Shown: in pieces, positions 13,126 through 17,893 of the stretch
Layout: the number at the start of each line of letters is the position of its first letter
Numbering within the stretch: the stretch's first letter is position 1
Source of the DNA: a virus
Strand: one strand, 5' to 3'
IMG/VR virus record: IMGVR_UViG_3300048592_000777
Location: 1 to 37,476 of that record
DNA: 37,476 nucleotides
Position numbers and translations under genes: made by a program
Notes under the pieces: generated by a model
What the model saw: only the letters and a program-made list of their open reading frames with translations
Database searches by the model: none
Told to the model about the DNA's origin: nothing

Positions 13126-13742
13126 AGGTACTCCTGCGCCGTGAAGGCCATGCGGTGGATCGCGCCCGGCTCGGCCGGCCAGCCGTTGCGGTTCTCCGCC
13201 ATGTGGAAGACGCCCACGGTGTTGCGCACGGTGATGGGTGCGTTGTCCGCCGGCGACTCGCGCAGTGCGGGCCAGAGGTCGAGCGTGGCGTTGCCGCTGC
13301 CGTCGCTCGTCACGTCGGCCAGCACCATGTGCAGACGCGCCGACGCGGCCGAGCCGAGCTGGATGTAGTCGCCCGCCTTGAGGATGCCCGTGATGGCGCT
13401 GGTCCACCCGTCGGTGAGCAGCGTGGCGCCGGTCTGCGCGGCGCCCTTGACCAGCGGCGTGCCGGTGGCCACGCCCTGCGGTTGCGCCCGGAGCTTGTCC
13501 CCGAGGAGGAAGGTGCCCTCGCGGCCGTTGAGGCTGGTGAGCCAGGCGATCCACGCGCGCGCCTCGGCATCGCGCATCGGCAAGAGGCGCACGTTGACGC
13601 GCCACGTCTGCAGCGGCCAGACCTGCGTCTGCACCGCGCCGGTGAAGGGCGAGCGCGTCACGCCTGCGCCGGCGAGAAAGCCGAAGTCGAACGTGGCCGC
13701 GTAATGGGCCGAGGGCAGCGCGCGCGGGAAGGTGATGGCCAT
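13122..13742 (-). CDS. distal tail-type structural protein (206 aa)
   Basis: The 206 residues start with ITFPRALPSAHYAATFDF and contain VQTQVWPLQTWRVNVRLLPM, LTSLNGREGTFLLGDKLRAQ and a GDYIQLGSAASARLHMVLADV strand region. This resembles distal tail proteins that sit between tape measure and hub and are found beside the VSRGLTAT-type protein downstream. The ATG overlaps the tape measure stop. Predicted beta-rich, no signal peptide. Likely forms the ring that joins tail tube to tip. Confidence 0.82.
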   Translation of the reverse strand: MAITFPRALPSAHYAATFDFGFLAGAGVTRSPFTGAVQTQVWPLQTWRVNVRLLPMRDAEARAWIAWLTSLNGREGTFLLGDKLRAQPQGVATGTPLVKGAAQTGATLLTDGWTSAITGILKAGDYIQLGSAASARLHMVLADVTSDGSGNATLDLWPALRESPADNAPITVRNTVGVFHMAENRNGWPAEPGAIHRMAFTAQEYL

Positions 13743-15502
13743 CAGCCGAGCTCCATGCCGCGCGCCCGGCCGCCCGCGACCGCGTCGCGCGCGATGCGCG
13801 GCACCGCCTTGTACAGCTCGCGGACGGTGCGCTCCACCTGCGCGAGCGCCGCGGCATCCGCGCCCGGCGCGTTGATGACGTAGGTGTTGCCCGCCGCCAG
13901 CGGCGTGATGGTCTGGCCGCTCGCGCCGCCGAAGGCGATCTCCGGCCCGCGCTCGCCCACGATCCCGAACGTGCCCGGCTGGATGAAGCCGCCCTCGGCG
14001 AAGAAGCCGGAGAAGAGCTTGCCGAGGTCCAGATCGTCCAGGAAGCCGGACAGGAAGCCCGCCGCCGGCTCCGTCACGCCCTTTCGCAGCACCAGCCGGC
14101 CGATGTCCTCCGCGATGCCGGAGAGCACGCTGCGCAGGCTCTCGCCGGCGACCACGGCGTCCTCGAACGCGCTGGTGAACGTGAGCCCCAGCTCGCGCGC
14201 CACGTCCTTGTTGCGGCGGGTCTGGTCCTCGAGCTCCTTCATGCCGGCCGCGCGCCCGCCGTTGGCGGCGAGGCCGGCCTCGCGGTCGATGCGCTCCTGC
14301 TCGTCGATCGCGGCGATCTGCCGCTGCAGGTCCGCCTGGCGCTCCTGCTCCTCGCGCCGGGAGCGGTCATCGGCGATGTTGGCGAGCTCGCGGTCGAGCC
14401 GCTCCGCCTCCCCGAGCACCGCCTCGGCGTACTGCACCCAGCCGCGCACGCCCTCTTCCTGCAGCCGCTTCTCGCGGGCCAGGCGCTCGTCGCTCGCGCG
14501 CTTGGCCTCCTGCTCGCGCAGTTTCGCGATGGTGGCGGCGTTGCGGTCGCCCATCGCCGCCTCGGCCTCGGCGGCGGCCGCTGCACGCGCGCGCTCCGCG
14601 GCCGCGCGGGCAGCCTGCTCCTCGGGCGTCGGCCCGGCCGCGGCGGCTGCGGCGGGTGCGGCGCCCAGCCGGCCGCGAAACGCGTTCATGATGATGCCGA
14701 AGTCGCTGTACCGCTCCGGCGAGATCTCCTGCCGTATCGCCTTGAGCGCCGCGGTGATGCTGCCCAGCGCGCCCACCGCGATGCCGCCCACGCCGTCGGT
14801 GCGGCCCAGCTCCTCCAGGAAGTCGCCCCACGCCTTGGAGGCGTCGGAAGTCGCCTTCGTGAAGCCGGTGTTCATGGCCTCGGCGGTGCCGCCGATGCGC
14901 TCCTGCAGGATCCGGAGCAGCTCCTCCTGCGCCTCGTACTGGCGGCCGGAATCCACCAGGTCCTTGATCACGCGCTCCTGCGCGGCGGAGAGCTTGCCGA
15001 TGTTGCGCTCCAGCGCGCCGACGCCCTCCGTGGGCGACTGGATCGCCTTGCCGAGCAGCTGCGCGGCCGCGGGCAGGTCCGTGCCCATGAACGCGGCGAG
15101 GTCCGCCGCCGACCGCAGCGTGCGCTCGAACACCTCGCCCTGGATGTTGCCGAACTTGAGCAGCGTGGCCTGCGCGTTGCGGATGCCCTCGTCGTCGAAC
15201 TGCGTGAGCTCGACGAGCTGCTCGTTGAGACGCTCGAGCTCCTTGATGGTGAGCCCGGCGGAGAGCCCCGTCGCGCGGAGGGTGGCGGCCAGGCGTGCCT
15301 CGGACTGCTCCGCCTCGCTCGCGGCCTGGACGATGGCCCGCACGCCGGCGGTGACCGCCGTCACCGAGAAGAGGCCGGCCAGCGTGGCCTTCAGCCGGCC
15401 GGTCAGCTTCTCCGTGTCCAGCATGGAGCCGCGGAAGGAGGCGAACGCGTCCTTGCTCTGGTCCTCGGCGTCGAGGTACGCGATCGCGCGGTTGTTGGTC
15501 AT
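13742..15502 (-). CDS. tail tape measure protein
   Basis: A 586-residue protein with long helical, Ala/Glu/Arg-rich segments (for example QAARAAAERARAAAAAEAEA and DRSRREEQERQADLQRQIAA), an early hydrophobic stretch (LAGLFSVTAVTAGVRAIV, about 42-60), and tape-measure-type phrases (TLLKFGNIQGEVFERTL, TGFTKATSDASKAWGDFLEE). The end has the usual glycine-rich close: GGFIQPGTFGIVGERGPEIA. It sets tail length and helps eject DNA. It is short for a siphophage (lambda H is 853 aa), predicting a short tail if the usual 1.5 angstrom per residue holds. Start ATG at 15502, right at the end of the preceding gene (1-bp junction). Confidence 0.93.
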   Translation of the reverse strand: MTNNRAIAYLDAEDQSKDAFASFRGSMLDTEKLTGRLKATLAGLFSVTAVTAGVRAIVQAASEAEQSEARLAATLRATGLSAGLTIKELERLNEQLVELTQFDDEGIRNAQATLLKFGNIQGEVFERTLRSAADLAAFMGTDLPAAAQLLGKAIQSPTEGVGALERNIGKLSAAQERVIKDLVDSGRQYEAQEELLRILQERIGGTAEAMNTGFTKATSDASKAWGDFLEELGRTDGVGGIAVGALGSITAALKAIRQEISPERYSDFGIIMNAFRGRLGAAPAAAAAAGPTPEEQAARAAAERARAAAAAEAEAAMGDRNAATIAKLREQEAKRASDERLAREKRLQEEGVRGWVQYAEAVLGEAERLDRELANIADDRSRREEQERQADLQRQIAAIDEQERIDREAGLAANGGRAAGMKELEDQTRRNKDVARELGLTFTSAFEDAVVAGESLRSVLSGIAEDIGRLVLRKGVTEPAAGFLSGFLDDLDLGKLFSGFFAEGGFIQPGTFGIVGERGPEIAFGGASGQTITPLAAGNTYVINAPGADAAALAQVERTVRELYKAVPRIARDAVAGGRARGMELG

Positions 15503-16159
15503 CTACCCCAGCCTCATGTTGCGTTGCATCCGCACCGCGATCCGCGGCACGGCCTCGCCGACGAGCTGCTGCACGCGCAGACGCTTCCGCAGCCGCACCT
15601 GCGGGACGAGCACCGCGATCGGGATCTCCGCCGAGCGCTTGAGCCGGCCGCCGCCCAGGCCCTTGCGGATCGGGCGCCGGAAGCGCGCGGTGAGCGCGGC
15701 GGACTCCTTGATGTTCTCGGCGAACAGGATCACCTTGCCGTTCACCCGCTTGAAGAACGCGTTGCCCTGCTTCATGAGCGCCTCGACGATGCGCTGGAAC
15801 GCGCGCCGGCCCAGCCGCTTGGGCTGGTTGAGCGGGATCAGCAGCCCGGCCCCCTTGCCGCGCACCGTGGCGCCCACCTCGTGCGCCTCCAGCCACGGCG
15901 CCCGGAGCGCGCCCACCTGCGCCGCGGGCAGGCGGTCGGGCCGCGCGGCGAAGAGCTTGTAGGTCATCACCTGCGCGAACGTCTGCCGCTTCAGGTCGAA
16001 CGCGGTGCGCATGTTGGCGCGCAGGCGCTCGCGCAACGGCGGCAGCTCGTCGCGGAAGGCCTGCACCGCGGCGCGCCGCAGCTCGCGGCGCTTCTCCGCC
16101 TCCCAGCGCGCGAACTCGCGCGGATCGAACAGGCCGGTGGTCCGTAAGCTAATTCGCAT
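15503..16159 (-). CDS. phage tail assembly protein, possibly DUF6441-like (218 aa)
   Basis: A very basic 218-residue protein, rich in Arg, with FDPREFARWEAEKRRELRRAA at the start, an AFQRIVEALMKQGNAFFKRVNG middle with beta strands (KVILFAENIKESAALTARF), and an RLRKRLRVQQLVGEAVPR end. Proteins with this layout, between tail chaperones and tape measure, are found in many phages and have been placed in DUF6441; that name is from memory and unverified. The ATG at 16159 lies inside the 3' end of the frameshifted T frame. Charge suggests contact with nucleic acid or the tape measure. Confidence 0.75.
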   Translation of the reverse strand: MRISLRTTGLFDPREFARWEAEKRRELRRAAVQAFRDELPPLRERLRANMRTAFDLKRQTFAQVMTYKLFAARPDRLPAAQVGALRAPWLEAHEVGATVRGKGAGLLIPLNQPKRLGRRAFQRIVEALMKQGNAFFKRVNGKVILFAENIKESAALTARFRRPIRKGLGGGRLKRSAEIPIAVLVPQVRLRKRLRVQQLVGEAVPRIAVRMQRNMRLG

Positions 16160-16418
16160 GGCGCTTCTTCTTGGCGTCGTTGACCGCGTCGCGGATGGCG
16201 ACCAGGCGCGTGATGAGCGCCTCGACGTCGCCCGCGTCGTACACCGCGGCGAGCACCGGCAGCCGCTCGGGGTGCCAGCCTTCCATGAGGTTCCAGAACG
16301 CCAGCGCGTGCGCCTGGTCGGCGTCCAGCGCCGGCCGGACCTCCTCCCAGCACTCGTCCGGGATCTTGAAGAGCGCGCGCGCGTCGGGTGCGAGGTCGAA
16401 CTCGACGCGCGCCCTCAG
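16149..16418 (-). CDS. T-type extension of the tail assembly chaperone, reached by -1 frameshift
   Basis: This open frame has no ATG or usual start of its own near its beginning; it opens at the slippery site (16418-16424) and ends with TAG at 16149-16151. Reading begins LRARVEFDLAPDARALFK, continues with a helical block (ADQAHALAFWNLMEGWHPERL) and ends in a short basic tail (NDAKKKRHAN). Joined to the upstream gene it gives a fusion of about 210 residues (121 + 89), matching the lambda gpGT arrangement. It is separate from the 15503 gene, whose start it overlaps by 11 bases. The downstream position before the tape measure supports a tail chaperone that binds the tape measure protein. Confidence 0.85.
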   Translation of the reverse strand: MRARVEFDLAPDARALFKIPDECWEEVRPALDADQAHALAFWNLMEGWHPERLPVLAAVYDAGDVEALITRLVAIRDAVNDAKKKRHAN

Positions 16419-16424
16419 TTTTTT
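16377..16424 (-). promoter_or_regulatory. programmed -1 ribosomal frameshift site (A AAA AAC) with stem-loop
   Basis: On the leftward strand the heptamer A-AAA-AAC (16418-16424) sits in the reading frame (CGA AAA AAC TGA) with the stop right behind it. After 5 bases (TGAGG) comes a perfect 10-bp GC stem, GCGCGCGTCG (16403-16412) pairing with CGACGCGCGC (16377-16386), with a 16-base loop. A heptamer, short spacer and strong stem are the standard elements of a -1 site. Slipping gives the T extension (16149-16418). The fraction of shifted ribosomes cannot be read from sequence. Confidence 0.9.
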
Positions 16425-16780
16425 CGGTCTTCCTCGAACCGCTTGCGCCGCGCCTCCATCGCCTCCCAGAAACCCTTGACGAGGTCGAGGCGCAGATCCC
16501 GCCGCTCCGCCGCGATGACCGGCCAGAGCGCGAGATCGAAGGGCAGCGCGGACGCGGCATCCGCATCGCCCGGGGCGATGTCCCCGATGGTCAGCGACCA
16601 GCCGAGCAGGCAGTCCACCGGGAGCTGCTCCTCGAACTCGCGCAACGCATCGGCGTCGTCCTCGGGCAGCCGCGCCGCACGCTGGCGCACGGTGAGCTGG
16701 TCGGGCAACTGCACGCGGAACGGCCCGATGTCCATCTGGCGCGACGCCGCCGCCCGCGCCGCGAGATCCGCCGGCGTCAT
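16415..16780 (-). CDS. tail assembly chaperone (G-type)
   Basis: A 121-residue protein starting at ATG 16780, which overlaps the tail tube stop. Segments TPADLAARAAASRQMDIGPF, LPDQLTVRQRAARLPEDDAD and FWEAMEARRKRFEEDRKN give a helical, acidic/basic protein. Its end carries the slippery site, so the same start yields both G (121 aa) and GT (about 210 aa). Position between tail tube and tape measure is exactly that of lambda G. It acts in the cytoplasm, coating the tape measure and recruiting tube subunits. It is not part of the virion. Confidence 0.88.
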   Translation of the reverse strand: MTPADLAARAAASRQMDIGPFRVQLPDQLTVRQRAARLPEDDADALREFEEQLPVDCLLGWSLTIGDIAPGDADAASALPFDLALWPVIAAERRDLRLDLVKGFWEAMEARRKRFEEDRKN

Positions 16781-17433
16781 CAGCTCGTGTAGGTGATGGT
16801 GTCGGCGTCGAGGCCGAGCTCGAGCGAGCCGGTCAGGATACCGTTCTGCGGGTTGGGCTCCGCCTGCAGGCCGAGGTAGCCCGCGCCGTAGATCGTCGCG
16901 CCGCCCACCACCCAGCGGAACGGCGTGAGCGTGCCGGCGCGCGCGATCGCGAGCAACGTCGAGAGCCACGCGAGGTTGGCGTCCCAGTTGAAATCGAACC
17001 CGAGCGTCACCGCCTGGGCGAGCGTCGGCACGTTGCGCCGGCGGGTGTCGCCCACCTCGGTGAAGTCCGCCGTCTCGAAGTTGCCGCCGCCGCCGCCGCG
17101 CACCCCGTCGTACCGGATCTGCGTCATGGTCGTCCAGGCGGTCACCTCCTGGATGCTGCCCACGCCCTCGCCGGCCGGGTAGTCGCTCGTCGAGGTGGTG
17201 TTCACGCCGTCGAGGTTCACGTTGTTCGTGGCCACCGTGCCGGCGCGGATCACGCGGTTGTTGAGCCGCGTCCACCCCGAGGTGATCAGCATGATGTCGC
17301 CGGCGATGACGCCGTGCGAGGCCTCCAGCGTGGCCACGCCGGGGTTGGCGTTGCTGACGGCACTCATGCTCTTGCTGGCGGCCAGCGTCGTGCCGAACGC
17401 GAGCGTCATGCCCTGGATCTTGCGCACTGCCAT
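16780..17433 (-). CDS. major tail tube protein
   Basis: A 217-residue beta-rich protein with segments such as KIQGMTLAFGTTLAASKSMS, NNRVIRAGTVATNNVNLDGV, RRNVPTLAQAVTLGFDFNWD and QNGILTGSLELGLDADTITY. Placement between the terminator-type gene and the G/GT chaperones, together with size, fits the main tail tube subunit of a lambda-like siphophage. An AAGGAA ribosome site lies 6-7 bases before the ATG, as expected for a highly made protein. The stop overlaps the chaperone start. Confidence 0.88.
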   Translation of the reverse strand: MAVRKIQGMTLAFGTTLAASKSMSAVSNANPGVATLEASHGVIAGDIMLITSGWTRLNNRVIRAGTVATNNVNLDGVNTTSTSDYPAGEGVGSIQEVTAWTTMTQIRYDGVRGGGGGNFETADFTEVGDTRRRNVPTLAQAVTLGFDFNWDANLAWLSTLLAIARAGTLTPFRWVVGGATIYGAGYLGLQAEPNPQNGILTGSLELGLDADTITYTS

Positions 17434-17446
17434 GATGGCTTTCCTT

Positions 17447-17893
17447 TCAGGTCAGAACGTCCGGCACACCGGACTGGGTGAACAACACGGCGCGGAAGTT
17501 CATCGCCGCCTCGCCGTGCGGCTTGTCGCCCTCTTCGGCGAGCGAGATCTCCACGCCCTCGTAGGCGAGCTCGACGCCCTGCCCGCCGACGGTGACGCCG
17601 GCCGCGAGCGCGGTCTCGACCTCCTTGGCGACCTGGTCGAGCGTGTCGTCGAGGTCCGCCGCGGCGGCGGCCCGCGCCTCGACGCGGATCTCCACGTCGC
17701 GGCGCACGGTCGGGTCGGCCTCCACGGTCTCCTCCGTGGCCGACTCGGAAAGCGCGTACACCAGCAGGCACGGCAGCTCGGCCGCCTGCACCGGGTACAC
17801 GCGCGACTGGTACACGCGCGAGCCCGTGGTGGCCAGGCCCGTGAGCGCCGTGGCCACCGCCTCCCGGAGCTGCTTGCGGACGTGGTCGGCCAT
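17447..17893 (-). CDS. tail terminator-like protein (U-type)
   Basis: The 148-residue product has a helical start (DHVRKQLREAVATALTGLAT), a middle with VYQSRVYPVQAAELPCLLVYAL, strands RRDVEIRVEARAAA and a helix DLDDTLDQVAKEVETALAAG; it ends with beta elements (NFRAVLFTQSG). This matches tail terminator / minor tail U-type proteins that cap the tube and join the head. It lies between the head-closure gene and the tail tube, which is the lambda order. The stop is 14 bases before the tube start. Confidence 0.85.
   Translation of the reverse strand: MADHVRKQLREAVATALTGLATTGSRVYQSRVYPVQAAELPCLLVYALSESATEETVEADPTVRRDVEIRVEARAAAAADLDDTLDQVAKEVETALAAGVTVGGQGVELAYEGVEISLAEEGDKPHGEAAMNFRAVLFTQSGVPDVLT

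Follow-up and report, generated by a model that had tools for sequence, protein, structure and literature searches.

A diverged G/G-T tail assembly chaperone with a predicted -1 frameshift in a metagenomic virus

The IMG/VR virus record IMGVR_UViG_3300048592_000777 (37,476 bases, 70% GC), which was analyzed over its whole length and is called the window here, raises the question of how a protein is made from a reading frame that has no start codon of its own. This frame (T, 16149-16418) is missing from a listing of open reading frames with ATG, GTG or TTG starts. An initial annotation explained it by a programmed -1 frameshift out of the preceding frame (G), as in the gpG/gpGT pair of phage lambda. 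The conserved shift site, the conserved -1 frame, the gene order, the predicted folds and weak family matches all agree with this reading, and we conclude with high confidence that this locus of an uncultivated tailed phage encodes a lambda-type tail assembly chaperone whose two forms, G and G-T, are produced through predicted -1 frameshifting. The mechanism is well known and the established picture of phage tail assembly is unchanged. What is gained is the right gene model for a protein absent from the listing, and this protein belongs to a new, strongly diverged family within the known G/GT frameshift class.

Overlapping frames and the shift site

All of the elements described here are on the minus strand, which the initial annotation did not state. 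The tail terminator gene (17447-17893; phrog_4204, 4.8e-20) is followed by the gene for the tail tube, or major tail, protein (16780-17433; PF08813, 5.5e-25; phrog_584, 2.2e-44), whose stop codon overlaps the ATG of G (16780) in the sequence TGATG. G (16415-16780) encodes the 121-aa short form of the chaperone. The end of T overlaps the ATG (16159) of a gene for a DUF6441 protein (15503-16159; PF20039, 2.3e-56; phrog_6367, 3.2e-50), and the tape measure gene (13742-15502; PF06791, 6.5e-14; several tape measure PHROGs) comes next. The window therefore reads tail tube, G/T, DUF6441 gene, tape measure, and has the two overlapping frames between the tail tube and tape measure genes that characterize a lambda-type G/GT locus.

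The 3' end of G reads GAC CGA AAA AAC TGA. The heptamer A AAA AAC (16424-16418) directly precedes the zero-frame stop (TGA, 16417-16415) and is split by the zero frame as CG-A AAA AAC, which is the phase required for simultaneous -1 slippage. As in lambda-type G/GT genes, an X XXY YYZ heptamer near the end of G thus opens into the -1 frame. A five-base spacer (TGAGG) separates it from a stem-loop that is discussed below. The coordinates and codon count first reported for this site were exact when rechecked. AAAAAAC occurs twice in the window, where 0.25 occurrences are expected; the second copy lies at 913-919 on the plus strand.

From 16418 to its stop codon (16149-16151), T is open for 89 codons and translates as LRARVEFDL...KKKRHAN. 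Its first ATG, GTG or TTG is codon 46 of the heptamer-anchored frame (the ATG at 16286), and none occurs upstream in the same open frame back to the previous stop near 16832. The GC content by codon position of T (0.76/0.42/0.96) has the pattern of a real gene, with a third-position value of 0.955, and is like that of G (0.77/0.47/0.91), the DUF6441 gene (0.73/0.48/0.97) and the tape measure gene (0.74/0.50/0.97). When the same stretch is read in the zero frame, its codon-position GC is unlike that of the neighboring genes. T is thus coding and has no start of its own, as expected of the second frame in a lambda-type pair, and its homologues (below) agree with this description.

Conservation of the shift site among relatives

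Searches of Pfam, PHROGs, phage records, viral contigs and genome contigs with the window's G, T and fusion proteins as direct queries gave no match, so the neighboring tail tube protein was used to find relatives. A profile search with it yielded 80 IMG/VR loci; the sole match of a single-sequence tail tube scan (L002) was false. These loci were scanned by rule for an in-phase heptamer with at least 70 open codons upstream, a zero-frame stop within 80 nt, and at least 55 open codons in the -1 frame. Of the 76 loci that could be tested, 73 have this arrangement downstream of the tube gene. Among 458 other 750-nt stretches taken from these loci, 5 have it; the excess after the tube gene is far beyond chance. 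The heptamer is GGGAAAC in 44 of the 73, AAAAAAC in 20, and another sequence in 9.

Several tube loci carry true homologues of the G and T proteins of the window: L049 (T 47% identical, E = 3e-14), L028, L022, L018 and L037, with L040 a weaker homologue by alignment and position. Further T homologues include L101 and L111. A T profile built from four homologues retrieved more members, and together with a DNA pattern search it brought the family to 22 non-redundant members. All 22, which are uncultivated contigs, have an A-run shift site; it is AAAAAAC in 21 and an A9G run in one. Family members keep the order tail terminator, tube, G/T, tape measure. The family has no match among the 50,697 phage records searched, and it defines a G/T chaperone group that is seen in uncultivated phage contigs and is unmatched among the named phages searched.

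These alignments also bear on whether T might instead be a separate gene, translated after termination of G by re-initiation or from a non-standard start such as the CTG at 16418. The tight overlap between the G stop and the T frame would suit translational coupling of this kind. However, the family members examined all lack an ATG, GTG or TTG in the first 14 T codons past the heptamer, and the window has none before codon 46. T homology across the family begins at the shift site itself, with its slippery Lys-Lys codons. Moreover, the zero-frame stop of G lies 3 nt past the heptamer in L018, 63 nt past it in L022 and 42 nt past it in L040, while the shift site and T are kept, so the conserved feature is the shift site and not the stop. 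A homologue carrying T as a separate, self-started gene was looked for in the family and was not found. We regard a separately initiated T as very improbable and favor its translation as a -1 extension of G.

A -1 product could also arise if RNA polymerase, rather than the ribosome, slipped on the A-run. The six consecutive A residues of the window's heptamer are compatible with such transcriptional slippage, as are the nine in L028 and the eight in L016 and L025. Most members, however, have only six A residues followed by C, always in the X XXY YYZ phase, and short A6 runs are poor sites for transcriptional slippage. The GGGAAAC that is used by 44 of the 73 tail tube relatives contains no long run at all. 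This alternative is accordingly judged highly unlikely, and ribosomal slippage is the reading carried forward. L016 (4660-5204) and L025 (4680-5266) contain a different G/T pair after a related tail tube gene, with an A8C run as shift site; their T is short (62-65 codons past the stop) and has no BLAST match to that of the window.

In five annotated phages with related tail tubes (PS-1, Aval, D14P, VarioGold and phiES15), the gene after the tube gene has GGGAAAC or AAAAAAC immediately ahead of its stop codon and is followed by an open reading frame in the -1 frame. Their G proteins belong to Phage_TAC_4.

Sequences flanking the heptamer

The stem-loop downstream of the heptamer (16377-16412) is a candidate pause element. 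Its arms, GCGCGCGTCG (16412-16403) and CGACGCGCGC (16386-16377), pair perfectly over 10 bp around a 16-nt loop, as initially described. At 0.25% of window positions, a perfect stem of at least 10 bp follows within 12 nt, but the same class of stem arises in 267 of 5000 synonymous resamples (5.3%) of the GC-rich T frame. The local folding energy at this site is unexceptional (z = -1.44, and -0.73 against synonymous resampling). Two close relatives, L049 and L101, are no more structured here than their synonymous resamples (z = +0.55 and +0.44). The stem is present where it was reported, but the weight that the initial annotation placed on it was too high.

Across the 22 family members, downstream folding is on average stronger than in synonymous resamples (mean z = -1.2, p = 6e-5, with members that are not independent of one another), and the 60 nt downstream of 39 shift sites fall on average at the 22nd percentile of their own locus. 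Downstream structure is thus a general tendency. The position and strength of the stem vary among relatives, and the conserved element is the heptamer; a conserved stem structure is not upheld, as the values for L049 and L101 illustrate. It is plausible that the window's own stem is functional, and the resampling results lend this idea little weight.

Upstream of the heptamer, 20 of 22 members have a GAGG, AGGA or GGAG in a 12-nt stretch about 5-16 nt ahead of it, where 15.2 are expected from synonymous resampling; one in 200 simulations gave a count as high. A subclade of twelve members (L018, L089, L090, L092, L097, L100, L102, L112, L120, L123, L125 and L126) has in addition, 13 nt before the heptamer, an invariant AGGATACAGCCG[CA] that adjoins AAAAAAC on its upstream side. 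The sequence AGGATACAGCC is common to twelve members, of which seven came from unbiased scans and five from a search for the motif itself, and its codons GAT ACA GCC are invariant. The G proteins of the twelve-member subclade are 51% identical, and mean codon identity at their shared residues is 0.56. When the last codons of G are set aside, ACA accounts for 14 of the 149 Thr codons counted. All 16 exact matches to the 20-mer in IMG/VR are members of the G/T family; six of these are new, and their shift site was read.

These comparisons hint at an RNA-level signal upstream of the heptamer in the subclade. We advance only tentatively the broader proposal that the family's shift signal includes a Shine-Dalgarno-like GAGG or AGGA 7-9 nt before the heptamer, extended to AGGATACAGCCG[CA] in the subclade, which might stimulate shifting alongside or instead of the downstream stem. 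The window has GAGGA only and lacks the subclade motif. Its own codons yield GAGGA in 99% of resamples, so an upstream stimulator is not claimed for the window, and this candidate was rejected there. The family offers a compact collection of sequences for working out by comparison which elements of a bacterial -1 shift signal are under selection: clearly the heptamer, the downstream stem only on average, and possibly the upstream element.

Folds, known systems and tail assembly

AlphaFold2 predicts confident folds for both G (mean pLDDT 96.4) and the T frame alone (86.8). Such folds would be unexpected if the frame break were an assembly error or a decaying gene, an explanation that could be entertained for a single metagenome contig with an error-prone homopolymer. 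The comparative data refute it, since 22 non-redundant contigs share the arrangement, as do sequenced isolate phages whose tail tubes are related, and we assign it a negligible probability. A functional pair of overlapping frames is the reading that we retain.

The model of G has three solved-structure matches only: YqbN (3klu; Z = 5.7, rmsd 4.6, 89 residues), 5ir0 (Z = 5.0) and the HK97 tail assembly chaperone (2ob9; Z = 3.3, 77 residues). The predicted fold is like those of YqbN and the HK97 protein, whereas sequence identity to them is 8-10% and the Z scores are moderate. The best viral matches of the T model are the tape measure/tail assembly chaperones of phages F20, Solomon and 9NA (TM by query 0.73, 0.77 and 0.53; probability 1.00, 1.00 and 0.90). 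These proteins share the predicted fold of T but only about 20% identity, with Foldseek E values of 0.04-0.4 (best 0.036). VIA-align of the T model returned unrelated proteins only (Z up to 4.3), and searches of PDB sequences with G and T profiles gave chance-level matches only.

Neither G nor T of the window is matched directly by a Pfam or PHROG profile, and their link to known chaperones passes through relatives and through these moderately scoring folds. Among 18 relatives of G, three match phrog_313, "Tail assembly chaperone" (best 1.3e-4). The Pfam profile of Phage_TAC_4 (PF08748) matches neither the window's G nor its relatives above cut-off, and hhalign of the G family against a TAC_4 alignment gives a weak link (37% probability over 45 columns). 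PS-1 and the other four Phage_TAC_4 phages resemble the window in having G after a PF08813 tube gene, T in the -1 frame, and GGGAAAC or AAAAAAC directly before the G stop, yet the protein sequences are barely related. Each of these fold and family matches is moderate, and they agree with one another and with the gene order.

The arrangement is also that of lambda gpG/gpGT, in which a short product and a -1 extended product are encoded between the tube and tape measure genes with the heptamer near the end of G (PMC5009743). The window differs from lambda in that its heptamer is A AAA AAC with a stop codon directly after it, its T has 89 codons, profiles of known G or T families do not match its G and T directly, and a DUF6441 gene separates T from the tape measure gene. 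In the lambda model, the unshifted G, present in excess, binds the tape measure protein, and the scarce G-T connects it to the tail tube protein; G-T frameshifting is a widely conserved phage mechanism (PMC5009743).

If the window's locus works in this way, most ribosomes would terminate at the TGA that adjoins AAAAAAC and so yield G. We infer that a minority would shift back by one base at A AAA AAC and go on to read T, making a 210-aa G-T fusion. The Lys and Asn tRNAs would probably slip in tandem, and the downstream stem may assist. By analogy to lambda, G may coat the tape measure protein, which would be the partner of the G domain. G-T may in addition bind the tail tube protein through its T domain, so that tube assembly could start.

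Searches of phages, plasmids and viral contigs with the DUF6441 protein gave no match. There is also a weak match (5e-4) between PF20039 and the N-terminal portion of the window's tail terminator, and a DUF6441 gene occupies the same place between chaperone and tape measure in L040.
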